A stretch of DNA of 64,000 nucleotides from Xenococcaceae cyanobacterium MO_167.B27 (GTDB taxonomy: Bacteria > Cyanobacteriota > Cyanobacteriia > Cyanobacteriales > Xenococcaceae). The notes beneath the pieces were generated by a model that was not told where the DNA came from, made no database searches, and was given only the letters and a program-made list of their open reading frames with translations. Location: contig JASJCP010000030.1 in assembly GCA_030065935.1 (NCBI GenBank), positions 1-64,000 on the forward strand, given 5' to 3'. Made by a program: the position numbers and the translations under genes. Positions 1,600 to 40,981 of the stretch are shown here, in pieces (position 1 is the first letter of the stretch; each line of letters opens with the position of its first letter).

Positions 1600-4500
1600 C
1601 TATTTTTCTAACACTGTTGGGTTTGACGACATAAAAGCTTTAATTCTTTCTGTTTCTAATAACTTCTGAGTGTCTGCTAGTAGTTTTTCGCCCCAGAGAT
1701 TGTCTTTGAGAAATTCTACATTCGCTAATCGTTTTTCCTGTCTTAGAGCTAGTTCTGCGAATTCTAATCCCTCTTCCTGCTCGCCCTCAGTATATAAAAC
1801 AACTGCGAAGGCTAGCAATGGTTCTGCGCTCTCAATTATAAGCCTAAATTCTTCCTTCTCTATGTTTGAGATTTGGACTGCTTGGTATAACATATCTTTA
1901 CCTTCTTTAGTTTTTTGTTGGAGTAATTCTTGATATTCTTGTTGGAGTAATTCCAGTTTATTGGCGTTAATTATTATCGCTTCACGCCATTGCTCAAAAG
2001 CTTCCTCCTTATCTCCAATTTCATAGTTAATTAAACCAATGTTATTTAGTACTAACAATAATTTATTATCTATAGCAAGTGCTTGATTGTAATCCGCTAA
2101 AGCTTTTGGATAATCTTTCAATTTATGATAAATAGTTCCTCTATATCCGTAGATATAGGCCGTTTTAGGTTTAAGCTTAATAGCTTGGTTTAAATCATCT
2201 AAAGCCTTATTGTAGTCTTCTAAAAAAAAGTAAGCTTGAGATCGACTTATGTAAGCATCGAAACTATTAGGCTTAAGTTCAATAACTCGGCTAAAAGCAG
2301 CAATTTCTTCCTTTGCTTCATTTTTTTCTATCGATTTATCTTCTTGGTTAACTTTTGAAGGCTCAGTTTCATTTCCTTTACAAATATGTTTGTCGCTTTC
2401 AATGATATTAGAGTTATTCTCTATATAATCACGTACCCAATCACAACCTCTTATCATTAGTCGATCTATATCCAAACTCCAAAGTTTTATAGTTTGATCA
2501 ATGCTGCTAGAAACAAGAGTTTTTCCATCAGAATTGAAACTAACACTATTCACACTATCTTTATGTCCTATAAGAGTTTGAAGTAACTTACCTTTTAAGT
2601 TCCAGAGTTTAATTGTATTGTCATCACTACCAGAAGCAATTAGCTGGCCATTGGGGCTGAAACTGACACTATTCACAAAATTTGCATGCCCTCTAAGTTC
2701 GGCTATTGGTTCTCCATTTAAATTCCAAAGTTTAATTGTTTTGTTATTCTTAGCAGAAGCTATTACTTTTCCATCAGGGCTAAAAAAGAACTTATCACCC
2801 TCAATGGTAGTTATTTGCTCTCCATTTAAATTCCAAAGTTTAATTGTTCCGTCATTATTAGCAGAAGCAATTATGTTTCCATCGGGACTGAAACCTGCGT
2901 TATATCCTTTAAGAGTAATAAGCAATTTTCCGTTTAAACTCCAAAGCTTAACTTTATTGTCATAGCCAACAGAAATAATATTCTGTCCATCGGCACTAAA
3001 ACTAATACTTCGTAAAGTCCCTGTATGTCCTACAAGAGTAGTGATTAATTTTTCTTGTTCTAAGTTCCAGATTTTAATAGTATTGTTATTACTGACAAAA
3101 GCTATTGTTTTACTGTCAGCACTAAAACTAAATGTCTTCTTATTAATAAGATTCAAAAGTTTCCACAAACTGAGACTAGTTCCATCACTAGCAAGCTCAT
3201 AACGCTTTTTCCTACTTAAGTTAGGGACTCTATAATCTTCGAGAATTTGGAGTAATTCACCCTGTAAATTCCAGAGTTTTACGGTATTGTCATAACTAAC
3301 AGAAACAATAATCTGTCCATCGGGACTAAAACCGATATCAATAACTTTGCTTGTATGTCCTCTAAGCGTTTGAAGTAACTCACCCTTCAAGTTCCAGAGT
3401 TTAATTTTGTCCCCTTTGCTAACTGAGACAATCATTTCTCCATTAGGGTTCAAACTGAAATTATTGCCATCCACTATGTTAGTTTGAAGAAAAAGCAACA
3501 GTGGTTTTTTTAGATTCCAAAGCTTAACGGTATTGTCACTACTAGCAGAAGCAATAATCTGCCCATCTGGACTGAAACTAACGCTACTAACCATAGCTTC
3601 ATGCCCTGTCAAAGTTTGGTCTAACTCTCCCTTTAAGTTCCAGAGTTTAACGGTATTGTCACCACTACCAGAAGCAATCATCTGTCCATCGGGACTGAAA
3701 CTAACGCTACTAACCATAGCTTCATGCCCTGCAAAAGTTTGGAGTAACTCTCCCTTTAAGTTCCAGAGTTTGATTGTATTGTCATTACTACCAGAAGCAA
3801 TCATCTGCCCATTGGGACTGAAACTAACGCTACTAACCCTAGCTTCATGCCCTGCAAAAGTTTGGAGTAACTCTCCCTTTAAGTTCCAGAGTTTGACTGT
3901 ATGATCATTACTACCAGAAGCAATCATCTGCCCATTGGGACTGAAACTAACACTACTAACCGGAAATTCATGCCCTGCAAAAGTTTGGAGTAATTCTCCC
4001 TTTAAGTTCCAGAGTTTGACTGTATGATCAGCACTACCAGAAGCAATCATCTGCCCATCGGGACTGAAACTAACACTACTAACCGAAGCTTCATGCCCTG
4101 CAAAAGTTTGGAGTAACTCTCCCTTTAAGTTCCAGAGTTTGACTATATGATCATTACTACTAGAAGCAATCATCTGCACATTGGGACTGAAACTGACAGT
4201 ATCCACATGATCTCTATGTCCTGTAAAAGTTTGAAGCAACTCACCTTTTAAGTTCCAAAGTTTGATAGTGTTATCATAGCTAGCAGAAGCAATTATCTGC
4301 CCATCGGGACTAAAACTGACATCCCAGACCAAATCTTGATGACCTGAAAACCTATTAAACTCTCTAACCCTATAGAATGAATTTTGTAGCGCACTAATAA
4401 CTTGAATTCGAGTCTCAAAATCAACTCCAAAAGTATTTTGTGCCTTTTTCCCAGCCCTCAGACTTGCCATCAAAGCTTCAAACTCTTGATTTGATACTAA

Positions 4501-6135
4501 GTATGTTTCTACCGATGCCGTAATGGTGTTAATCTCTTCAATTAATGCTTTTTGCCATTGTCGCAAAGCTAATCCAGTCAAGCCCAAGGCTACTATCAAA
4601 CCACCAGTAAGCCAAGAAATAATTTGTAGTTGTCGACGTTTCTCCTTCTTTTTTTCCTTATCTCTGAATGCTGAACTTTGCCGAATAAAATTTCGTTCAG
4701 CTTGACTTAGTTCTTCTCCTCGTTTTTTCTGCCACTCTTCTGCTTCTAGCAATAGTAAGCCTCGCAATAATGCCCCTTCATCATGCTTCGCATTTTCCCA
4801 TTGATGCAAAACTACTCTTAGTTGCTCTTGCCAAACCCGAAAACTGCGGTCTGTTTCCATCCATTGTCGTAGTTCACCCCAATTCCGAATCAGCGCTTCA
4901 TGGACAACCTCTACTGTTTCTTGATCCGCAGGATTACGACTAGTAACCACTAATCGCGCATCCGCCAACTTTTTGATCAATCCCCAGCTTTCTTCACCCA
5001 ATTCCGCTTTAATTGCCAGTCGTCGCGTATCCTCCGTTCCTTCCCCCGGACGCACCAATTGGATAAAAATATGGTGTACTTGCTGTTGCTCAACCAAACT
5101 CAACTTGCCATAACTCTCATCTGCATGACGAGCAAGGGCACCTTGTACCTCACCAATTGCCTCATAAGCTGCATGAGTTAATTGTTTGCCCGTTCGCCGT
5201 TTCCACAACTCCGTCAAAGCAAACTCCAACAGAGGCAAATTACCCGGCTCATCTTCCACATCATCCAAAATGCGTTCCACCAGTCCCTCTTGAAAAGTCA
5301 CCCCCAACTTCTGAGCAGGCTTGACAATTACCTGCTCAAGTTCAGAGTGGTTCATCGACCGGATTTTGACATCGGCGTATCGCAATAAATCCCCAAACGG
5401 AGGATAGGAGAGGGCATTTCCCAAGAAATCCACCCGCATGGTTGCAACTAGCACATTAGGAGATTGGGATTGAGAAGGAGAGGATTGAAAGCTGGCTAAT
5501 AAAGTATCTAGGAAACTACGGCGAATTTTCTGATCCCCACACAAAGTATAAAGTTCTTCAAACTGGTCAGCAATCAACAATACCCGCTCCGTGGGGTGGT
5601 TTTGGTGAATCTGAGCAAATACATCAGCCAGAGGAACAGTACCTTCACAAAAGTAACCTGCTAATTGACGAGCTTGAGCTATCCGTTCAGTAGCATTCAA
5701 ATCGGGAGTATAAAGGGGAACTAGCGCCAAAGCCAGAGCATGGAAAGGGTCGGAACCGGGACGGAAGTGAGTAAACAGCCAGTGACCTGCTTGTTGCAGT
5801 TTGGGCACCAGTCCCGCCAGAACTACTGAAGATTTACCACTTCCCGACGCACCCAAAACGGTTATAAAATTAAGGGTTTGAGTCGCAGCAAATAGTTCTT
5901 CGACAAATACCTCACGCCCAAAGAAAACCTCAGCATCATCGGGACCAAAATGAAACAAACCCCGATAAGGACAAGGGAGTTTTTCCTCAGCAGCAGTTTC
6001 TTCAGACTCGACTGGTTTACCCCTTACATCTTCCCTATAGTAGAAGTAATTGTAGACAATGTTTTTTTCGCCAACTACAGCACTCTTTACTTCATCTTCA
6101 AACGTTGGATTGTATTTGGGACGATCTTCAGCCAT
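1600..6135 (-). CDS. nSTAND NTPase-WD40-TPR receptor (NLR-like) with N-terminal amyloid motif
   Basis: A 1511-residue signal-transduction ATPase. Residues 16-31 ([16 protein letters not shown]) resemble a RHIM/BASS amyloid-signalling motif. A novel-STAND NTPase follows from about residue 54, with Walker A GASGSGKS (95-102) and Walker [11 protein letters not shown] (185-193). One hydrophobic helix near 505-525 is followed by about 15 WD40 repeats (roughly 590-1235), several nearly identical, and by TPRs near 1290-1400. The gene lies 19 bp downstream of the small Bell-like gene, whose C-terminus carries a matching motif, so the two form an operon. By analogy with NLRs, the WD40/TPR part probably senses a ligand, the NTPase oligomerises and the N-terminal motif seeds the partner. 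The architecture is clear; the immune role is inferred. Confidence 0.9.
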
Positions 6136-24799: not shown

Positions 24800-24934
24800 G
24801 TTGCTCCTCAAATATCTTTAGGAAATATCAAGACCATAGGATAGTTAAGATAGGCTATAATTCCTTTGCTTACAAGACTATCAATATATAGCAATCCCAA
24901 TTTAGCTCTCAGAAATTATACAACTAACCGAATC

Positions 24935-26656
24935 ATGGCAGGAAATCAATCCCAGAATAATCAACCCAACAAATCTACACTAGAAGAAATCCGCGCAAAC
25001 CGCATTGAGAAAGTACAACAAATTAAAGATTTGGGATTGAACCCTTATGCTTATAAGTGGGAAGTAAGTCACTACGCACAGCTATTACAAGAAAAGTACG
25101 CAGAATTACCTGATGGAGAAGAAGTAGCAGATGAAGTATCTGTTGCGGGAAGAATTATGGCGCGTCGCGTCTTTGGTAAGTTAGCTTTTTTTGAATTACA
25201 AGACGAAACTGGCAAAATTCAACTATATTTAGATAAGAAAAAAATTAACAGCACTATGTCGGATTTGACTGGTGCATTTAATCACCTCAAAAAATTATCT
25301 GATACAGGAGATATCTTAGGAGTAAAAGGTACTCTCAAAAGAACGGAAAAAGGGGAACTTTCAATCTATGTTAGGGAGTTTGCCATCCTAACTAAATCTT
25401 TATTACCCTTACCTGATAAATGGCACGGTTTAACTGATACCGAAAAAAGATATCGTCAAAGATATGTCGATTTAATTGTTAATCCTCAAGTTAGAAACAC
25501 TTTTCGCATTCGGGCTAAAATCACTGCTGGAATTCGTCGCTATTTAGAACAGCGCGATTTTTTAGAAATAGAAAGCCCCGTTTTACAAAGTGAAGCTGGT
25601 GGTGCAGAAGCTCGTCCCTTTATCACTTATCATAATACTTTGGAGATGGATTTATATCTCCGTATCGCTACAGAATTACATCTCAAAAGATTAATTGTTG
25701 GCGGTTTTGATAAAGTCTTTGAGTTAGGAAGAATCTTCCGTAATGAAGGTGTTTCTACCCGTCATAATCCTGAATTTACGATGATAGAAGTCTATCAGGC
25801 ATACGCGGATTATAATGATATGATGGCGTTAACAGAAGATTTAATTAGTAGCGTCGCTCAAGAAGTTTTAGGCACAACTAAAGTTACCTATCAAGCAGAA
25901 GAAATTGATCTTACTCCTCCTTGGCGTAGGGTAACTATGCAGCAAATTGTGCAAGAAACAACAGGAATAAACTTTGCTCAATTCGACAATTTTGAAACAG
26001 CAAAATCCGCAGCCAAAGAAGCAGGAATTGAAGTACCAGAAGATTGTAAAACTATTGGTAAACTGCTTAATGAAGCCTTTGAACAAAAAGTAGAAGAAAG
26101 TTTAATTCAGCCTACTTTTATAATTGACTATCCTATAGAAATATCTCCCTTAGCCAAACCCCATCGCAATAAACCAGGTTTAGTAGAAAGGTTTGAATTA
26201 TTTATCGTAGGAAGAGAAACAGCTAATAGTTTTTCCGAGTTAACCGATCCTTTAGATCAAAGAGAAAGACTAGAAGCACAAGCAGCAAAAAAAGAAGCAG
26301 GAGATGTGGAAGCTCATGATGTTGACGAGGATTTCTTAGCAGCATTAGAATACGGTATGCCTCCTACTGGTGGTTTAGGAATTGGCATAGATCGTCTGGT
26401 AATGCTATTAACAGATTCTCCTAGTATTCGCGATGTTATTGCTTTTCCACTACTAAAAAGTCAGAGTGTTGCTGTTAAATCTTTTGACTATGATGCAGAG
26501 AAACAAATACTCAAAATTGAGTTCAATAATGGCAGTATCTATAAATATTTAGATGTACCAGAATCTATCTATAAAGAATTAAAAGAAACTCCCTCTGTAG
26601 GTAAGTATTTTAATAGTCATATCAAAGATAAATTTGGCTTTGATAGGGAAGTTTAA
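24935..26656 (+). CDS. lysS: Lysyl-tRNA synthetase with C-terminal KTSC domain
   Basis: A class II lysyl-tRNA synthetase of about 573 residues that charges tRNA-Lys. An N-terminal OB-fold anticodon-binding domain ([21 protein letters not shown]) precedes catalytic motifs 1-3, including [18 protein letters not shown] and [14 protein letters not shown]. The usual end ([11 protein letters not shown]) is followed by about 65 extra residues, [20 protein letters not shown] onward, a KTSC domain known as an appendix of some bacterial LysS. The ATG at 24935 matches family starts. A TTG at 24866 would add 23 unlikely residues. Confidence 0.97.
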
Positions 26657-30233: not shown

Positions 30234-33200
30234 TTAAAACCCACCACACTTAAAAGAATGTTGCCAAAAAGTTTGATAAATTGATTCAGGTGCATAGCTA
30301 ATCAGTTCTATATTACCCTTATCATTCAACATCCATCCTTTTGCTTCAACAATAGAAGTTTTCTTATTGTTTCTCTCAACATTAGAAATAGAGTTATTAG
30401 TTTCTACTTCCTCAGAGATAGCAACTAAACGTAAATCTTGCCAAACAGATTGACCCCTGAGACTTTGCTGAGGATTATCAGGGTATCCACCTTTCCCAAC
30501 AATCGCCATAACGTTTTCTCGATTTACAGGACAACTAGCAGTAATTAATTGGGTGGGATTAGTGATAGTATCTGGTAGTTGAGTCAGACCAAATTGTTTT
30601 TCCGTATCAGGATTGTTAATCTCAACAACACCATCTAAACCAAATTCGGAACTAGCATCAATATCGCTACTAGGGGAAGTAAAGATAACTTCTGTATCAA
30701 TATTAATATTACCTCCAGAACCCAAGACCGCATTAGCACGAATATCGCTATTATTAGCAGCTAAAACCACATCACTATCGATCGCGATATTACCACCACC
30801 ACCAGTACTATCTAAAACACTAGTGCTTACCAAACTATTATTTTGCAGTTGGATAAAATCTGTAGTGAGGTTGATATCTCCACCACCAGTTTGTTCAGAA
30901 GTAGCTGTAATTAAACCTTGATTAGATTGAATGCGATCGCTTTCTATATTAATATTACCAGCTTGACCTGTTCCTGTACTGTTAGTGGTAATTTTTCCTT
31001 GAGTAGAAATATCCAGCAAATTACTTGTGACAGATATTGTTCCTCCATCTCCTCCTGCAACAGTACCACTACTTACCATTGCACCAGTATTGAGGTTGAA
31101 ATTTTCTGTTGTAATCTGAATCGAACCTCCAGCCCCATTTCCCAGAGTTTCCGCCGTTATTTGACTCCCATTTGTTGCGGTAAGAGTATTACTATTTAGC
31201 ACAATATTGCCTCCACTACCAGCAAAAGTGGCAGCCGTAATACTAGCAGGAGTATCAGCATCTATTCCATCTAGTTCAATACTATTAGCATTAATCTCAA
31301 TATTTCCTGCCTCACCCAAACCAGGCGGTACATCAGCATTAGTAGTCAAGAAATTACTCCCACTAATAGTTGCGCCATCTTTAACAGTTAATTTATCCGT
31401 TGTTAAAGCTATATTCCCCCCGTCTCCATCACCAAACACTGCGCTAGAAAATAAACCGCTACTACCACCCCCTGCTTCAATAGCATTACCCATCAATTCG
31501 ATTGAGTCGGATGCTGTTACCATTAGATTACCTGCCGAGCCAGAGCCACCAGTACTAACAGCAATTTGCGCTCCTTCTGAGACTCTTAAATTGTCAGTAG
31601 TAATTGTCAAATTCCCACTATTGCCTGTTGCACCTGGAACAACCGATGCAAATATAGCAGTGGGACTATTTTCTCCAGTGGAAAATCCAGTTAAATCGAT
31701 TTCTTGGGCTTTAATGGTGATATTTCCCCCATTTCCAGAACCAAAGACACTAGAATTAATTTTTGTTCCATTAGTCAGGGTTAAGCTGTTAGTCTCAATA
31801 TTAATATCACCCCCAACCCCTGTAGCTTGGTTGTTGTCTATGGAAGCTGAAATTTGACTGGGATCTTCTAAAGAAGCAAGACCTTTTAATTCGATAGTAT
31901 TAGCCTTAATGTTGATATTTCCTGCTGTTCCCAAACCACTAACTGTAGAACCAATATCAGCCCCATTTGCGATCGCTAAATCACCTGTATCAATAGTTAA
32001 ATTACCCCCATCACCATCGGCAAAAGTATTACTAAATAAAGCACTAGGAGAACCATTGGGAGAAGTCCCATTGAGTTCAATCTCTTGTGCCTTAATATTA
32101 AAATCTCCTGCTTTACCACTACTTAGTGAAAGGGTAAAAGCTTGCGCCCCTCCCGCTACTAACAAGCTGTCTGTTTCTATATTAATATCACCCCCAACCC
32201 CTGTAGCTCCTGGCACAATAGGAGCAAAAAGACCACTAGGTCCAGCTAAGGGTGAACCCGAAATTAACTCTACTTGCTCCGCGTTGACACTTAAAGTTCC
32301 TCCCTCTCCACTGCCAAAAACGGCACTGGCTACTTGCGCGCCTCCTGCTACCAGTAAATAACTGGTGTCAATGGTTAAATCTGCTCCTGCACCTGTTGAA
32401 CCTGTTGTGGTATCTGTAGAAACATAGGTAACAAAAGGAATCTCGTTTTGAGAAACCCCTGTAATCATGACTGACTCTGCACCTTTGAGAGTAATACTTC
32501 CTGCTGTGCCATCTCCTGAAGTATTAGCAAGAATTGCCGAAGCATCAGCTAGAGCGATATTTTGTCCTCGAACATTCACCGTACCACTACTATTTCCACT
32601 TACTTCCACTGAAGCTGCATTAACCAAATCAATATCTTGAAAGCCAGCTACTTCTTGATAATCAAATGTCCAGATTCCATTATCATTAGCCAGTTTAACC
32701 AGCCCTTCTCTTACACCTCCTAATTCAATATGCCCTTCTGCTGCGGTGAGATTTCCCCCATCTAAAGCAATATTGCCCCCGACTAAAGCTATAGTATTTC
32801 CTGACTCAACTTGTAATCCAGAAGGACGAAAGTTTTTAATCAGAGAAAAATCATTAGCACTAGGGTCAGCAAAACCAGTATTATTACCAATCCCTTGAAC
32901 TAAAATATTGCCAGCATCATCACCATATTGCAGACCGATAGGAATATTAATTGTTAGTAAAGGCGGAGCTTGAGGATCAACTGCACTATAAAAACTCCCA
33001 TCACTAAATTGAATACTGTTTGCTGTACTACCAATAAAAGAACCACCAATATTAAGAGTCGCATTCTCACCGAATATAATTCCGTTGGGGTTAATTAAGA
33101 AGAGATTAGCTGCACCATTAGCCCGAATTATCCCTTCAATATTGGAAACTGAACCACCAGTGACACGACTAAAAATATTTTCAATAGTCAATCCATTATC

Positions 33201-33467
33201 AAAAAAAGCTGTTTGACCATTGAGAACCGAAAATTCCTGAAAACTATGAAATAGATTATTGCCTACTGTTGTTCCCTCTGTAATCTGGATGATATCTGCA
33301 TTAGGAATCACCACAGAGTTATTGGGCAATGTAGCATCTGGTGTTATTTGTGCCGTAGCCTTTAAGCTATTAGCTAAACACAAAAAATATATTACACATA
33401 AAGCCAATCCCTTGGGGTTTCGTCTTGTTTCCAACTGTCGCAACAACAAATTAATAGGACTCAGCAT
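30234..33467 (-). CDS. Filamentous-haemagglutinin-type two-partner-secretion exoprotein
   Basis: A 1077-residue secreted TpsA-like protein. A long signal peptide (GLALCVIYFLCLANSLKATAQ) precedes the TPS domain (about 40-290), with its conserved FLINPNGIIFGENATLNIGG. The body (300-960) is a right-handed beta-helix built from repeats such as GAGGDINIETDSLLVAGGA. The C-terminal section includes two cysteines, SCPVNRE and a final FKCGGF. No TpsB/ShlB transporter gene is near, so its exporter is elsewhere. Probable roles are adhesion or an outer surface layer. It is a single-gene unit. Confidence 0.92.
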   Translation of the reverse strand: MLSPINLLLRQLETRRNPKGLALCVIYFLCLANSLKATAQITPDATLPNNSVVIPNADIIQITEGTTVGNNLFHSFQEFSVLNGQTAFFDNGLTIENIFSRVTGGSVSNIEGIIRANGAANLFLINPNGIIFGENATLNIGGSFIGSTANSIQFSDGSFYSAVDPQAPPLLTINIPIGLQYGDDAGNILVQGIGNNTGFADPSANDFSLIKNFRPSGLQVESGNTIALVGGNIALDGGNLTAAEGHIELGGVREGLVKLANDNGIWTFDYQEVAGFQDIDLVNAASVEVSGNSSGTVNVRGQNIALADASAILANTSGDGTAGSITLKGAESVMITGVSQNEIPFVTYVSTDTTTGSTGAGADLTIDTSYLLVAGGAQVASAVFGSGEGGTLSVNAEQVELISGSPLAGPSGLFAPIVPGATGVGGDINIETDSLLVAGGAQAFTLSLSSGKAGDFNIKAQEIELNGTSPNGSPSALFSNTFADGDGGNLTIDTGDLAIANGADIGSTVSGLGTAGNINIKANTIELKGLASLEDPSQISASIDNNQATGVGGDINIETNSLTLTNGTKINSSVFGSGNGGNITIKAQEIDLTGFSTGENSPTAIFASVVPGATGNSGNLTITTDNLRVSEGAQIAVSTGGSGSAGNLMVTASDSIELMGNAIEAGGGSSGLFSSAVFGDGDGGNIALTTDKLTVKDGATISGSNFLTTNADVPPGLGEAGNIEINANSIELDGIDADTPASITAATFAGSGGNIVLNSNTLTATNGSQITAETLGNGAGGSIQITTENFNLNTGAMVSSGTVAGGDGGTISVTSNLLDISTQGKITTNSTGTGQAGNINIESDRIQSNQGLITATSEQTGGGDINLTTDFIQLQNNSLVSTSVLDSTGGGGNIAIDSDVVLAANNSDIRANAVLGSGGNINIDTEVIFTSPSSDIDASSEFGLDGVVEINNPDTEKQFGLTQLPDTITNPTQLITASCPVNRENVMAIVGKGGYPDNPQQSLRGQSVWQDLRLVAISEEVETNNSISNVERNNKKTSIVEAKGWMLNDKGNIELISYAPESIYQTFWQHSFKCGGF

Positions 33468-33883
33468 AAGCTTCTTATTATAAGGTAGTTAGAATTACCC
33501 TAAGTCAGAGATCACTACAAAAACAATTTCTGGCTCTGACCGTTGGTAAATTTGAGATTAATAGATTGAACCAATCCTCCTCTCAATATCATTCCCAAAA
33601 TGAGCTTAAAACTTATTGATGTCTCATAATTGTCGAGATTATGAAGCGTAAAAGAGTAATTCTAGAGCGAGGATTAAAATCTCAGGAAATCGGGGATGAT
33701 ACTGATGTCATCAGTTTAAATTCGCAACTACACTGCTAATTGAAAAAGTGTAAAAAAACGTAGCAGGCACCTATGTCAATGCAACGTAAGGGAAATTTTC
33801 CAGTTACCTGTCCAGGTACTTATCCCTCGCGATCCAAGCGGGGCAACGCTCAAAATGAAAATTGTGAAAATTGCTGATTCAGC
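33468..33883. other. Intergenic region, divergent promoters
   Basis: A 416-bp gap between the haemagglutinin-like gene (leftward) and the dioxygenase-ATP-grasp gene (rightward), carrying both promoters. From about 33780 the composition becomes more G+C-rich, like the gene that follows. That may mark the left edge of transferred DNA. An inverted repeat GATGATACTGATG/CATCAG near 33696-33713 is weak. Confidence 0.4.
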
Positions 33884-36115
33884 GTGAAAATATTGCCTAT
33901 TCCGACACTTGAAATTACTCAGTTTTCCACAGGTTTGGGAAAAGAGGAGATAGCAGACCTCCAGGAACTCGCCCGCTCCATCTGTGCAGCATTGAGTGCT
34001 TATCCTCACTTCGTTGTCGTCAACGGCTACCCTCCCCTTGAAGACCGCACCAACCTGGTCAATATGTCCCGAGCCATTTGTGCCATTGGTTCAGGGCAAT
34101 CTCTCTTGGGCTTTGGCTCTCAAAACCAACTGAAGCTCTCTTTTACACAAGTTCGGATCGATCGGGCAAAGGCTATGGCTAGGGGAAAAGTCACCCAATA
34201 CAGCCGAACTCACCTGCCTTTAGCACCTCACACCGATTCATCCTACATGACCAGACCTCATGAATTGGTTGCATTTCAGTGCATTGTAGCGGATAACATG
34301 GGCGGTGAATCCATCATTATTCCTGTAGAAGACATCTTGTCACGGATTGATAGTGATACCGTCGAGCTATTGCGAGATTCAGTATTTCGGTTTGGCAACA
34401 ATCAATCCCCTATTCTTTTTGGTGCAACAGGGGATGAGCAGATTCGTTACTATCGATCGCAAATTGACCAAACACTGAAAGCAGAAACCTCTGCTTTGTC
34501 TGACAAATATTACGCTGCTATTGAGACTCTAGATTCTGTGCTTCAGCAACCTGCTCAATTGATTCAGTTTCCTCTGCAACCAGGGCAAATTCTGTTTATG
34601 CACAATAGAAAGGTGCTGCATGGACGAACGGGATTCTCTCCAGAAAGCGATCGCCTGCTTTATCGAGTGCGTCTTCATGTAGATAGTTTTGAATTTGGGA
34701 ATTCAACCGAGACATCGAACTGTACTAATGCTTCGACAACAGCAAGTTCCAATGGTCAGGGTAGCAATGAAGATCTGGCTACTGCTAAAGCCCATCCGCC
34801 ACTTGCCAAGGAACTGAAGGGTTTGTCTGGCTTTGAAGAACTATTCAAACTTAATCTTCACCCTAGTCAATTACCCCCTAATCCTGCAACCAGGCTCAAT
34901 ATCTATGGTCAATTCTTACTAAGCAGGGGGCAGTTTGCTGAGGCAGCCCAAGCTTTTCTCAATTGCTTAAAAATTTCTCCTGACCATTACGAAAGTGGTC
35001 TTGCTTTATCTAGTCTCGCTGATGCTCGCGGGGATTATAAGGCAGCCCGTGCCATCATGAACCAGGTTGCCAGACGGCATCCTGTGATCTGGGAAGGAAA
35101 ACCCGAGCCTCAGAAGCCAACCCTATTAAGAATTCGAGGGTTAGAAGGATCGGCTTATAGCATTGTCCAAAAATCTGACGGCACTTACCAGAACTTATTG
35201 GGAGGCGGTCATTTTTCGGTTCGGGATTTGGTAAATCGGAAACAATATAACTTGATGATTCTCAATCTGTTGGAAAACAATATTGATGGGTTAAAGGATA
35301 TTCCTAAATTTGATTTACTTCTCAATACAATTGCCTGTCCAGATCGCAAACGAGTGTCACTAATTGCTGCTGCCAGATTTGTGGATCGCTATCCCAACAT
35401 TCCCGTTATCAATGATCCCCGTCGTGTTCTCGAAACGACTCGGGAACGCAATGCCCTTCGCCTTAACATGATTCCAGGGGTCTGTTTTCCAAAAACAGAA
35501 AGACTGAGGTGGGATGGTATCTCTTCAGATGCGATCGCTAAAGAAATCTTTGGTTTGGGGTTTGTTTTCCCCTTTATCGTCCGTCAAGTAGGTTCGCAAA
35601 CAGGCTCTAGTGTTAAGCTTGTTAACAATAAACAAGAGCTTTGCTCCCATTTCCAAAATAGTCCACCCAACATAGAATACTACATCATCCAATTCCAGAA
35701 TTACCGCAATGGGCGGAATGTTTTTAACAAAACGCGAGTGTTTTTTATCGACGGTAATTTCTATCCCGTTGCCAATTTATTCAATGATTCCTGGAATGTT
35801 CACTCGGGCGATCGTTATAGTGTGATGGATAAGACTCAATGGATGCAGGATGAAGAAAAGTCTTTCCTCAATGACCCTGTTAGGTATCTCGGCACGGCAA
35901 ACCTTGACAAACTCTACAAAATTCGTGATGTTGTTGGTCTTGATTTCTTTGGAATTGACTTGACAATTCTCCCAGACGGAACTCTATTTATCTTTGAATT
36001 GAACGCTGCTATGAGGCATAACTTCGATCATGCCAAGAATTTTCCTTATACCGAACCCCACTTAAGGCGAATATCCAAGGCTTTCGAGGTGATGATCCAA
36101 CACCGTTTACAGTGA
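33884..36115 (+). CDS. TauD-like Fe(II)/2OG dioxygenase - TPR - ATP-grasp fusion enzyme
   Basis: A 743-residue three-module protein. Residues 1-270 form a TauD/TfdA-type dioxygenase with metal ligands His116 and Asp118 (PHTDSSY), His246 (VLHGRTGF) and a 2-oxoglutarate arginine near 257-263. Residues 330-400 are TPR-like (ATRLNIYGQFLLSRGQFAEA). The C-terminal 300 residues are an ATP-grasp ligase-like domain (FPFIVRQVGSQTGSSV, then FFGIDLTILPDG and metal-binding FIFELNAAM). The combination suggests oxidation plus ATP-dependent amide or peptide bond formation in a small biosynthetic route; the substrate is unknown. GTG at 33884 is the first possible start, since a stop lies just upstream. The gene is visibly more G+C-rich than its neighbours, suggesting transfer. 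Confidence 0.85.
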   Translation: MKILPIPTLEITQFSTGLGKEEIADLQELARSICAALSAYPHFVVVNGYPPLEDRTNLVNMSRAICAIGSGQSLLGFGSQNQLKLSFTQVRIDRAKAMARGKVTQYSRTHLPLAPHTDSSYMTRPHELVAFQCIVADNMGGESIIIPVEDILSRIDSDTVELLRDSVFRFGNNQSPILFGATGDEQIRYYRSQIDQTLKAETSALSDKYYAAIETLDSVLQQPAQLIQFPLQPGQILFMHNRKVLHGRTGFSPESDRLLYRVRLHVDSFEFGNSTETSNCTNASTTASSNGQGSNEDLATAKAHPPLAKELKGLSGFEELFKLNLHPSQLPPNPATRLNIYGQFLLSRGQFAEAAQAFLNCLKISPDHYESGLALSSLADARGDYKAARAIMNQVARRHPVIWEGKPEPQKPTLLRIRGLEGSAYSIVQKSDGTYQNLLGGGHFSVRDLVNRKQYNLMILNLLENNIDGLKDIPKFDLLLNTIACPDRKRVSLIAAARFVDRYPNIPVINDPRRVLETTRERNALRLNMIPGVCFPKTERLRWDGISSDAIAKEIFGLGFVFPFIVRQVGSQTGSSVKLVNNKQELCSHFQNSPPNIEYYIIQFQNYRNGRNVFNKTRVFFIDGNFYPVANLFNDSWNVHSGDRYSVMDKTQWMQDEEKSFLNDPVRYLGTANLDKLYKIRDVVGLDFFGIDLTILPDGTLFIFELNAAMRHNFDHAKNFPYTEPHLRRISKAFEVMIQHRLQ

Positions 36116-36640: not shown

Positions 36641-39600
36641 ATGGTCAAGATTAATTTTATTTACACCTCTGATGTCAGTGTCGAACAAATGATTGGTTAT
36701 GAGATGGCAGCAATCATTTGGGGTAAATTATTTACTGACGATATCGATGTCAATATTCTAGCAAAAACTACCAACGAGCTAGACTCCAACGTTATCGGTG
36801 GGGCAATTCCTGAATTTCACGAACAACACTACGCCTTATTTCTTCAATATTTTGAAGCAGATATCACCTCAGCAGAAGACCAAATAGCTTACGATGCTCT
36901 ACAACAAGGCAATACGGTTGATTTTCTTCTCAATGGAGACTTAGTCAGTGGCAATACTAAACTCAAATTGACCACTGCTTTAGCTAAAGCTCTAGGGATG
37001 GACGAAGCCATTAGTCTTGATCGCTACATCCTAGACGAAGAGACTCACTTCCTCGATGGTACTATTATGATGAACCAGAATTTTGCCTGGGACTTCAACT
37101 ATCTACGGGACAGTGCAGCAGCAGAAAATACCCTAGATTTCTTGAGTGTCGCTCTCCACGAAACAGGACATATTTTAGGTTTTACCAGCAGTTTAGACTT
37201 CGCCCTTCAACAAGATACTCTCTATTCTGGTCGTACAGAGTTAAGTAATTTTAGTCCTCTGGACTTATTCCGTTTCTCCGCAGAAAGTTTAGCTCAAAAT
37301 AACCCTGATGGTACTGTTAATGACTTATCCATTGGAGGAGTAACTTGGTTTTCTACCGATGGTGGAGAAACCCTCAGTGCCAAGATGTCCACAGGAAAAG
37401 AAGGAGATGGTTATCAAGCTAGTCACTGGGAAAGACGCTATGACCCATTAGGCATTATGGATCCCACTCTCTGGTATCAAGAGCGAGCATCCATTACTGA
37501 TTTGGATGTGTTGGCTTTTGATATTATGGGCTATGACTTAAGCCAAAATGCTGGTGACGTAGAACAGTTATTTACCACCGAAGGATTAGAACTATTACTA
37601 GCAGAAGCTAAACTCCAATTAGCGAATAAGCTTGATGTTTCTGTTCAGTGGTTAGAAGATAATTCAAATGTACCAATATCTTCTTTGGACTTGATAGGAC
37701 AGATAGAAGCAGCAATGGCAGAAGCTGCACTCGCTCCCACAGAAACTACTCCAGAAACTACTCCAGAATCTAGCTCCACAGAACCTACTCCAGAAACTAG
37801 CACCACAAACGACTTCATCAAAGATTTAGGTGACATGATGAAGGAAATCTCTAAATGGTGGTCGAAGAATAATGATCAAAATAATAATGATCAAAATAAT
37901 GGTGAAAATGACAACCAGGGTTCTTCCTCGCAAGAATTCTATGAATGGTGGTCACAAAATAACCAAGGACATGGTTCTTCCTGGCAAGAACTCTATGAAT
38001 GGTGGGCGCAAAATAACCAAGGACATGGTTCTTCCTGGCAAGAACTCTATGAATGGGGGGCGCAAAATAACCAAGGACATGGTTCTTGGTGGCAAGAACT
38101 TTACGAATGGTGGGCGCAAGATAACCAAGGACATGGTTCTTGGTGGCAAGAGGTATTCTTCGCTAGTAAAGGTGAAGTTGCTTTAGAAAATATCGAATTG
38201 CCAGGAGAGAAAAGCAACCCAGTTGATAATACTTATAAAGAAATTGCTGGTGGCAGTCAAGATGACATCATTGGCGGAGATATCACCAATGATAAAATTA
38301 TCGCTGGTGACGGGGATGACCTCATTGATGGTGCTGGTGGAGATGACACTATTGCTGCTGGTGATGGTTACGATACTATCTTTGGTTTTGATGGTAATGA
38401 TTCCATCATGGGTGAAGAAGGGGATGATTTAATTTCAGGAGAATCTGATAATGACGTTCTCTTGGGACAAGATGGTTCTGATGTTCTCTTTGGTGGAGAC
38501 CACGATGATTATCTAGATGGAGGAGCAGGTAGGGACTTTCTCAATGGTAATACAGGACACGATGTTTTAGTAGGAAGGGCGGGGAATGACGCTCTAGAAG
38601 GAGAAGCTGGTAAAGACCTCTTAATTGGAGGTGCAGGTCAAGATATTGGTAATGGCGGTAGTGGCAATGATTTTATCTTCGGGGATGAGTATTCTGCAAG
38701 TTTACAACAAGCCTTTGGCAATAATTTAAGTCCTCTAATCAATCTCTTTACTCCTACTACTGAAACTACCACTACAGAAACTTCTACTACTGAAGAAGTC
38801 ATTACGGTCGAGCTTGGGCAAGACCCAGTAAGAGTTGAAGCAGAAAATATGACCTTGTCTGGGAACTATAGCCTAGCTTCTGGTGGGACTCTAGTTCAGA
38901 CTAATTCTACGGCTAGTATTAGTACCTTGTTTAATGGAGAAGCAGGACTTTACAACATTGTTATCGGCTACCACGATGTTTATGGTAATGCTAGAATCAC
39001 AGCCTCTTTAGGAGCAAGTACCATAGATGACTGGTATCTAAATCAATCTTCAGGAAGTACATCTCCCAGTGGTTCAAACTTTAACACCAGAACTATTGCT
39101 AGTGAAGTTAGTCTCAATGGTGGTGAGTCTCTAGTTCTAGATACAGTTGTTTACGCAACTAGTAGTGGCGATGATGACGATGATGGTGGTGTTGTATATG
39201 ATAAGGGTTACATCGACTATGTTGAGTTTGTTCCCATCGTTGATAATACTAATAATGTAGTTCTAGAGCCAGACCCTACTACTACTGATTCAACTAATAC
39301 TGATACTTCTAATACTACTGATTCAACTAATACTGATACATCTAATACCCTACCTTCTGGAGTAGCACTAGGAGCAAATAGCGACATCCTCAGAGGTGGT
39401 AATGGTAATGATGGTATTGATGGTGGTGAAGGTAACGATGTTATTTTCGGAGAAGATGAGTTAAATGATTCAAGTAATATTGCTCCGATTAATATTGCTG
39501 GTAGTTTTAACTACGGTCGGAGTACTTATATATTAAGTCAGGCTGGTAGTTGGCAAGAAGCACAAGCTGAAGCTGAAAGTTATGGCGGTAATTTGGTCAC

Positions 39601-40981
39601 AATCAACGATGCTGCGGAAAACCAATGGCTGAAAGATACCTTTGGTACAACAGAGGCTCTCTTTATTGGTTTCTCTGATGCGGAAACCGAAGGAACCTGG
39701 AAATGGTCTAGCGGTCAAGTTGTAGACTGGGTTCTCAGTAACAGCGGTGATGCTATTTATACTGATTGGGCTCCTAACCAACCAGATGATTATCAAGGAG
39801 ATCAAGACTACGCTATCTTGAGTCATATCTGGGATCCAAATACGGATAAATGGGATGATGTAACCTTAAAGTATTCATCTTTCCGAGGCATCATTGAGAT
39901 TGACTGGTCTAGTGTTGGTGGTAATGACACTATCATTGGTGGTGCAGGAGATGACCAAATTTACGGTAACTCTGGTAACGATTTAATCTACGGTGATGAT
40001 ATAAATATTGGTGATGATATAAATATTGTCAAAACTCTTCAAACCTTAACCTTCCAGCAAGGAATTAATGGCTACAACGGCACGGTTGATACTCAACTTA
40101 ATGGATACAATTCGAATACAAGTTATGGTAGTGCAACTTCCCTCAATATAGATAATGATGACTTGGGATCTCCCGCTCAGACTTTGATTCGCTTTGAAGA
40201 TATCTTTGGCAGTCAAGCAGGTCAAATTGCTGTAGATGAAAACATCGAATCTGCATTCCTGGAAATTAATGTTTCTAACCCAGGTAATAGTTTTAAGGTT
40301 TACGAACTCCTACAAAACTGGTCAGACACTAGTACTTGGAACTCTTGGGGTAATGGAATTCAAACTAACGGTGTGGAAGCAGCAAGTACATCAATTGCCA
40401 CTACTGACTGGGTAAATACAGGTATTCTAAGAATTGATGTAACAGCAAGTTTGCAAGCTTGGCAAGCAGACCCCACAACTAATTATGGATGGGCTTTCTT
40501 ATCCACAGGTATTGATGGGATTGATTTTGACTCTGCCGAAGGGATTAACGCTCCTCGCTTGGTAGTCAATGTTAATCAAGCTTCATCTAGTTCTGGAGCA
40601 GGTAATGATATCATTACTGGAAATGGTGGTAATGATACTATCTCTGGTGGTGCTGGTGACGACATTATCAATGGTACTGATGAAATAGTTGCTGGCTACT
40701 ATGAAAAAGATGTCTTAATCGGTGGTGCTGGTGCAGACAAGTTTATCTTAGGAAATGCTAACCAAGCCTACTACGCTACTGCTGGCAATCAAGATTACGC
40801 ACTGATTGAAGACTTTGACTCAAATCTGGATACTCTACAACTTTATGGCTCTGCGGTCGATTATCAACAACAGCAGCAAGGAAATGATGTTTTCCTCTCT
40901 CGCAATGGAGATTTGATAGTGATTCTAGAGAATACTAGTACTTTGAATCTCAATGGTAGTAGTTTTGAGTATGTGGTGTAA
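36641..40981 (+). CDS. Secreted RTX metalloprotease with CBM-like, C-type-lectin and DNRLRE domains
   Basis: A 1446-residue modular exoprotein. Residues 1-310 form a zinc metalloprotease with VALHETGHILGF (His173, Glu174, His177) and a Met-turn-like LGIMDPTLWY, like the NF038122 group. After a Thr/Pro/Glu linker come five 18-residue W-rich repeats (about 425-505), RTX calcium-binding nonapeptides (about 545-685), a carbohydrate-binding-module-like domain (721-867), a C-type-lectin-like domain (about 955-1085), a DNRLRE/CBM96-like domain (1130-1318) and a final RTX block. There is no Sec signal; the C-terminal RTX pattern indicates type I secretion. It probably processes or binds extracellular polymers. 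No T1SS genes are nearby. Confidence 0.9.
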   Translation: MVKINFIYTSDVSVEQMIGYEMAAIIWGKLFTDDIDVNILAKTTNELDSNVIGGAIPEFHEQHYALFLQYFEADITSAEDQIAYDALQQGNTVDFLLNGDLVSGNTKLKLTTALAKALGMDEAISLDRYILDEETHFLDGTIMMNQNFAWDFNYLRDSAAAENTLDFLSVALHETGHILGFTSSLDFALQQDTLYSGRTELSNFSPLDLFRFSAESLAQNNPDGTVNDLSIGGVTWFSTDGGETLSAKMSTGKEGDGYQASHWERRYDPLGIMDPTLWYQERASITDLDVLAFDIMGYDLSQNAGDVEQLFTTEGLELLLAEAKLQLANKLDVSVQWLEDNSNVPISSLDLIGQIEAAMAEAALAPTETTPETTPESSSTEPTPETSTTNDFIKDLGDMMKEISKWWSKNNDQNNNDQNNGENDNQGSSSQEFYEWWSQNNQGHGSSWQELYEWWAQNNQGHGSSWQELYEWGAQNNQGHGSWWQELYEWWAQDNQGHGSWWQEVFFASKGEVALENIELPGEKSNPVDNTYKEIAGGSQDDIIGGDITNDKIIAGDGDDLIDGAGGDDTIAAGDGYDTIFGFDGNDSIMGEEGDDLISGESDNDVLLGQDGSDVLFGGDHDDYLDGGAGRDFLNGNTGHDVLVGRAGNDALEGEAGKDLLIGGAGQDIGNGGSGNDFIFGDEYSASLQQAFGNNLSPLINLFTPTTETTTTETSTTEEVITVELGQDPVRVEAENMTLSGNYSLASGGTLVQTNSTASISTLFNGEAGLYNIVIGYHDVYGNARITASLGASTIDDWYLNQSSGSTSPSGSNFNTRTIASEVSLNGGESLVLDTVVYATSSGDDDDDGGVVYDKGYIDYVEFVPIVDNTNNVVLEPDPTTTDSTNTDTSNTTDSTNTDTSNTLPSGVALGANSDILRGGNGNDGIDGGEGNDVIFGEDELNDSSNIAPINIAGSFNYGRSTYILSQAGSWQEAQAEAESYGGNLVTINDAAENQWLKDTFGTTEALFIGFSDAETEGTWKWSSGQVVDWVLSNSGDAIYTDWAPNQPDDYQGDQDYAILSHIWDPNTDKWDDVTLKYSSFRGIIEIDWSSVGGNDTIIGGAGDDQIYGNSGNDLIYGDDINIGDDINIVKTLQTLTFQQGINGYNGTVDTQLNGYNSNTSYGSATSLNIDNDDLGSPAQTLIRFEDIFGSQAGQIAVDENIESAFLEINVSNPGNSFKVYELLQNWSDTSTWNSWGNGIQTNGVEAASTSIATTDWVNTGILRIDVTASLQAWQADPTTNYGWAFLSTGIDGIDFDSAEGINAPRLVVNVNQASSSSGAGNDIITGNGGNDTISGGAGDDIINGTDEIVAGYYEKDVLIGGAGADKFILGNANQAYYATAGNQDYALIEDFDSNLDTLQLYGSAVDYQQQQQGNDVFLSRNGDLIVILENTSTLNLNGSSFEYVV
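37912..38153 (+). repeat. 54-bp tandem coding repeats in the RTX protease gene
   Basis: Five near-identical units encode NQGHGSSWQELYEWWAQN with small changes (SS/SW, WW/WG). The first unit lacks two codons and the last is cut short. High identity at DNA level suggests recent expansion by slippage or recombination. The Trp/Glu-rich product is probably an extended or self-associating linker. Confidence 0.85.

Follow-up and report, generated by a model that had tools for sequence, protein, structure and literature searches.

A conserved single-chain TauD dioxygenase–TPR–ATP-grasp fusion in marine cyanobacteria, proposed as a two-step tailoring enzyme

Introduction

The chemistries of 2-oxoglutarate (2OG) oxygenases and ATP-grasp enzymes are both known, as is their pairing in one route as separate proteins. 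In dapdiamide biosynthesis, for example, the 2OG oxygenase is DdaC and the ATP-grasp enzyme is DdaF. In the E-64 pathway (fungal cp1) and in cyanobacterial mfa, a 2OG oxygenase acts first and an ATP-grasp ligase follows (PMC12568646); that paper also cites DdaF and DdaG of dapdiamide biosynthesis, and describes Cp1B as having no detectable sequence identity with other characterised ATP-grasp enzymes. TPR proteins, for their part, occur in an unclear role at some graspetide loci (PMC8939145). Here we analyse a cyanobacterial gene that carries a dioxygenase, a TPR segment and an ATP-grasp domain in one chain, and which a first-pass annotation had flagged as compositionally foreign and of a layout shared with no known characterised enzyme.

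Results

The fusion gene and its upstream region

The gene lies in a 64-kb window, by which we mean the whole stretch of DNA that was analysed, and comprises the following parts, preceded by a conserved non-coding element:

33695..33722, + strand: conserved non-coding element RATGATACYGATGTCAYNNNNTTAAWTT, 28 bases, upstream of the fusion gene
33884..36115, + strand: TauD dioxygenase–TPR–ATP-grasp fusion gene, 743 aa, GTG start at 33884 (ORF listing and full-length homologues)
33968..34669, + strand: TauD/TfdA 2OG dioxygenase domain, residues 29-262 (Pfam PF02668, E 1.9e-21)
34670..34894, + strand: variable linker, about residues 263-337 (alignment A1 and dN/dS)
34895..35083, + strand: TPR segment, residues 338-400 (Pfam TPR_19, E 7.7e-7)
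35108..36112, + strand: pre-ATP-grasp and ATP-grasp domain, residues 409-743 (AlphaFold2 model, Foldseek and columns of alignment A4)

The open reading frame is exact, with a stop codon that ends at 36115 in the ORF listing, and full-length homologues in independent assemblies rule out an assembly chimera or a frameshift fusion. The GTG-started 743-aa TauD–TPR–ATP-grasp fusion is real, and the original observation is borne out. Its full-length homologues (loci L001, L002, L004, L006, L010 and L011) are 52-81% identical and come from Xenococcus, Mastigocoleus, Richelia and Rivularia, with 80-81% identity in Xenococcus MO_188.B8, 72% in Mastigocoleus testarum, 66% in two genomes belonging to the same genus as the window and 52% in the Richelia and Rivularia MAGs. 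Incomplete copies were also recovered, one broken by a contig end (G654) and one truncated at a contig start (G676); two Mastigocoleus copies of equal size and equal identity to the query, with matching flanking genes, look like an assembly duplicate. The search of other genomes suggested at the outset therefore returned a conserved fusion in several marine cyanobacteria, plus the split pairs described below. The distribution is rare and patchy: the gene was present in 3 genomes of a phylum sample (386) and in 6 of an order sample (391).

Purifying selection acts on each of the three domains, whereas the linkers drift: dN/dS for the domains was 0.10-0.36 in every one of the four pairs, and reached 0.65 in the linker as against 0.10-0.13 in the ATP-grasp domain. 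The variable linker is 34-67% identical between homologues.

The gene's 44.4% G+C (z = 1.7) and 41.3% GC3 (z = 3.0) are the highest values among the 27 genes of the window, and it is indeed richer in G+C than its surroundings. The label "compositionally foreign" holds as a measurement but not as evidence of recent import. Composition and patchiness hinted at recent horizontal transfer; the ATP-grasp tree, however, places the gene with Xenococcaceae genes, and because the Xenococcaceae sequences stand together there, we set this explanation aside and claim no recent transfer.

The upstream element is an imperfect inverted repeat (TGATACxGATGTCA), shows 75-77% conservation ahead of the gene in L001, L040 and L041 (four genomes in all), and is probably regulatory. 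Allowing for up to 3 mismatches, the genome as a whole contains it once, and a regulon acting through it was rejected on the ground that it is unique to the fusion gene. Separately, a stretch of about 100 bp that separates the GTG start from the conserved block upstream (33786-33883 of the window) is absent in the Xenococcus orthologue, where an ATG start directly follows that block; no second copy of this stretch was found in the genome.

The dioxygenase half

The N-terminal domain scores 77.6 bits against PF02668, where the curated cut-off is 27. The metal triad H116-x-D118...H246 is invariant across the seven full-length proteins of alignment A1 and present also in the split TauD gene, in agreement with the annotated TauD-type dioxygenase with an intact HxD...H triad. 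R257 and R261, likewise invariant in A1, are candidate 2OG-binding arginines by analogy with the TauD family. The best profile and PDB sequence matches are TmpA and the trimethyllysine and gamma-butyrobetaine dioxygenases (TMLD and GBBH), and GntD and VioC are also among the nearest characterised dioxygenases, whose substrates are small amines, zwitterions and amino acids. TmpA, TMLD and GBBH belong to the same TauD superfamily, but the fusion's dioxygenase matches the C-terminal part of their profiles only, and its equivalog scores of 48-57 bits fall below the cut-offs of 268-415.

The TPR segment and the ATP-grasp half

Between the halves, the TPR_19 match (residues 345-400) exceeds its Pfam cut-off. 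The detected repeats amount to only about 1.5-2 TPR units: TPRs do join the two halves, as first described, but the plural is slightly generous.

The ATP-grasp domain is faint by profile. Pfam RimK scored 18.4 bits on the whole protein and 21.2 bits on the domain scanned alone, under and at the cut-off of 21 respectively, and the NCBIfam model TIGR00768 (RimK family alpha-L-glutamate ligase) scored 20.4 bits, below its cut-off of 143.4. For this reason residues 409-743 were modelled separately with AlphaFold2 from 14 diverse relatives, giving a mean pLDDT of 83.4 and a pTM of 0.83; a full-length AlphaFold model, with seven sequences only, had a pLDDT of 37. When the separate model was compared with the PDB by Foldseek, the best matches were RimK (top, E 2.7e-11), D-Ala-D-Ala ligases, LysX/ArgX and PsnB, at E 1e-11 to 1e-9, with ITPK and synapsin near the top, and the matched proteins were all ATP-grasp. 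TM-scores were moderate (0.45-0.57), which fixes the superfamily and not the substrate. Modelling thus confirms a predicted ATP-grasp superfamily fold for residues 409-743.

Ten residues never vary in the 14 relatives of alignment A4: R567, G570 and G574, which lie in one loop of the domain, and K616, R618, W637, H640, D692, E705 and N707. By assignment from RimK, we predict that R567, K616, R618, D692, E705 and N707 contact ATP or metal; D692, E705 and N707 fall at RimK's metal-binding positions and are putative Mg ligands. The structure prediction proposed for this pocket therefore yields a RimK-type fold with conserved pocket residues, and the active-site residues on which the annotation of a metal-binding ATP-grasp ligase depended are present throughout the 14 relatives. 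The subfamily also has a signature of its own, ELNAAMRHNFDHAxNFPYT.

The presence of ITPK and synapsin among the fold matches means that ligation is not the sole chemistry the fold allows. The ATP-grasp domain could instead be a kinase or a phospholipid- or sugar-type enzyme that shares a non-peptide substrate with the dioxygenase, as weak Pfam matches to ATPgrasp_ST and inositol kinase models might also suggest. The E-x-N metal motif and the pre-ATP-grasp region of RimK/Ddl/LysX type favour a ligase, and we regard the kinase-type alternative as very improbable.

Uncharacterised TPR/ATP-grasp proteins from Rhizobium, Paraburkholderia and Cupriavidus plasmids share the ATP-grasp core and its HxxDxxxxFPYK signature, but have the metal-motif Asn replaced; no dioxygenase was found fused to these genes or annotated beside them. 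One such relative of the ATP-grasp half, on a Rhizobium tumorigenes plasmid (L038 11602-16353), has a C-terminal extension that resembles a cysteine peptidase by eye only. Downstream of it lie a 514-aa protein of unknown type and then a PLP decarboxylase like diaminobutyrate decarboxylase, and these genes are possibly a small biosynthetic operon.

Split gene pairs and phylogeny

In two related genomes, the same activities are encoded by adjacent genes. G281 carries a TPR–ATP-grasp gene (L059 9492-10889) followed 5 bp later by a same-strand TauD gene, and G698 has the same arrangement with a gap of 92 bp. Over 264 aa, the split TauD shares 35% identity with the dioxygenase of the fusion (E 1e-43), closer than any other non-fused cyanobacterial TauD seen. 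It groups with the fused domains in the dioxygenase tree, with weak support, and in the ATP-grasp tree the split partners form the sister group of the fusion clade, at support values of 100/99 and 99/98. Genes that stay linked whether or not they are fused are a classic sign of a common pathway, and the adjacent split genes in two genomes tie the two activities into one. Gene order and phylogeny therefore support a functional link between the dioxygenase and ATP-grasp activities; this part of the tailoring route first suggested for the gene is strengthened, while tailoring of a small molecule or peptide is something we infer.

The same comparisons bear on a simpler origin, in which chance or convenience brought together two loosely related functions, namely a TmpA/GBBH-type dioxygenase for catabolism or detoxification and an ATP-grasp enzyme acting on something else. 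The dioxygenase's profile matches are catabolic and carnitine-pathway enzymes, and one locus (L005 in G012) has lost the dioxygenase part and kept an intact TPR–ATP-grasp ORF, abutted by a CHASE2-GGDEF gene, so that this half may act alone there. By contrast, the split genes lie side by side in two genomes and the phylogenies of the halves run parallel, which indicates an association that outlives the fusion, and we consider a chance joining quite unlikely.

The gene neighbourhood

Among the ORFs scanned across the 64-kb window, none was a natural-product biosynthetic gene, as the remark on missing biosynthetic neighbours had it, and none was an amide bond synthetase (ANL family). The genes flanking the fusion encode secreted-type proteins instead:

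30234..33467, − strand: TPS-domain (FHA-type) exoprotein, 1077 aa (Pfam TPS, 2e-64)
36641..40981, + strand: NF038122 metalloprotease with tandem 18-aa Trp-rich repeats, RTX, C-type lectin and DNRLRE parts

Both recur near the fusion locus in Mastigocoleus and L005, the metalloprotease alone recurs in L001, and the exoprotein is conserved beside the metalloprotease in L002 and L005. Between its protease and RTX parts, at residues about 425-510, the metalloprotease carries five tandem 18-aa SSWQELYEWWSQNNEGGN repeats (SSWQELYEWWxQNNxGGN); related proteins have a different Trp-rich repeat (YWWGWQG) at the same place.

This neighbour is the obvious candidate target if the fusion is a post-translational modifier, in which the TPR would recruit a protein or ribosomal peptide, the dioxygenase would hydroxylate a side chain and the ATP-grasp domain would add an amino acid, in the manner of RimK, or form a cross-link as graspetide ligases do. 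TPRs usually bind proteins or peptides; the closest fold is that of RimK, which is itself a protein modifier (a poly-glutamate ligase of ribosomal protein S6), and the graspetide ligase PsnB is among the matches. The repeat-bearing metalloprotease adjoins the gene in four loci, and of the 6 family genomes that carry the long metalloprotease, 5 also have the fusion. A C39-peptidase exporter near the Rivularia fusion and, by eye only, the peptidase-like extension of the Rhizobium L038 relative could be read in the same way. Several observations argue against such a modifier, however. The sixth family genome, G008, has the metalloprotease without the fusion, and Richelia has the fusion and no such metalloprotease; Trp-rich repeats occur at the same position in relatives that lack the fusion (G132); and the metalloprotease/FHA pair stands alone in many genomes. 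The flanks of the fusion gene contain no conserved small precursor ORF, and on that ground a RiPP precursor beside it was rejected. We therefore reject the metalloprotease as a dedicated substrate and consider protein modification as a whole unlikely.

The metalloprotease and exoprotein look like a conserved secreted pair in their own right. In many family genomes the NF038122 gene lies directly upstream of the TPS (FHA-type) gene on the same strand, about 0.6-2 kb away, for example in:

G000:C224:14405-19139, metalloprotease/FHA pair
G013:C88:2499-7517, metalloprotease/FHA pair
G016:C7:1803840-1808986, metalloprotease/FHA pair
G006:C15:39437-43982, metalloprotease/FHA pair

We know of no description of this pairing. 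Because it is widespread without the fusion, we treat it as a separate secreted module, and both genes in the window are probably outside the fusion's pathway.

Across the fusion loci, no gene for a substrate, a transporter, resistance or a second tailoring step is consistently linked. Neighbours vary by subclade, and include DUF6817 (G002/G003), a D-lactate-dehydrogenase-like gene (G676) and, in Rivularia, HlyD and the C39-peptidase ABC exporter. In two loci of the window's genus, the DUF6817 gene begins 12 bp downstream of the fusion (L040 18711-19304; L041 234-827) and is likely co-transcribed with it; DUF6817 had no PDB match, and no paper on it was found.

Elsewhere in the window, we noted a class II aminoacyl-tRNA synthetase with a KTSC domain fused C-terminally (24866-26656), and an nSTAND1 NTPase with a long WD40 array and an adjoining transposase (1600-6135).

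Discussion

The conserved TauD–TPR–ATP-grasp fusion is probably a working two-step enzyme. Its dioxygenase kin oxidise small zwitterions and amino acids and most of its ATP-grasp fold kin make amides, so that oxidation followed by amide formation is the simplest joint reading. We accordingly favour, with a probability of roughly 45%, a bifunctional tailoring enzyme independent of NRPS machinery. In such an enzyme, the N-terminal Fe(II)/2OG dioxygenase would hydroxylate or otherwise oxidise a small substrate resembling an amino acid or amine carboxylate; the C-terminal RimK-type ATP-grasp domain, using Mg-ATP, would convert a carboxylate to an acyl phosphate and couple this to an amine through an amide or peptide bond; and the short TPR segment between them may serve as a scaffolding or recruitment module. 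The proposal extends to the action of both sites on one molecule, the sequence of the steps, a free small molecule as substrate, and the product. A more ambitious version is doubtful: that the fusion represents a new single-chain oxygenase–ligase class which, needing no further dedicated gene, supplies marine and partly rock-boring cyanobacteria with a hydroxylated dipeptide or amide, its TPRs acting as a built-in module for substrate channelling.

If both sites do serve one molecule, oxidation and amide formation would be available from one expressed protein, an appealing prospect for biocatalysis. Such an enzyme would also point to a natural product that escapes cluster-based genome mining, since the gene lacks biosynthetic neighbours, and the TPR/ATP-grasp family of cyanobacteria and rhizobial plasmids would gain its first assigned function. 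The split version in other genomes is a naturally occurring control against which the benefit of fusion could be judged.

The first-pass annotation knew of no characterised enzyme with this layout, and our searches concur. Neither Pfam, NCBIfam, the PDB nor the open literature searched contained one, or a characterised homologue under another name; both the single-chain TPR layout and the NAAMRHNFDHAxNFPYT subfamily were absent from the curated libraries and open-access papers searched. The single-chain dioxygenase–TPR–ATP-grasp layout thus appears undescribed in those sources.

Among described systems, the RimK family shares with the fusion its best fold match, a RimK-like Pfam domain and the E-x-N metal motif, whereas the fusion adds an N-terminal TPR and dioxygenase and its own signature. 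Graspetide ligases (PsnB, MdnB/C) share the ATP-grasp fold, with the sequence match of the fusion's ATP-grasp profile to PsnB weak (E 0.26); in the fusion, unlike graspetide systems, the TPR is inside the ligase chain itself, and no precursor gene was found beside it. The dapdiamide route is comparable by description, since there too a TauD-like oxygenase step precedes amide formation by an ATP-grasp enzyme, but uses separate proteins with a carrier protein. The E-64/circinamide type of pathway likewise pairs an Fe(II)/2OG oxygenase with an ATP-grasp ligase in one NRPS-independent route; no Cp1B-like entry was among the PDB matches of the fusion's ATP-grasp profile. There, the E-64 and mfa activities are encoded by separate genes plus an amide bond synthetase, whereas the fusion described here holds oxygenase and ATP-grasp domain in a single chain.
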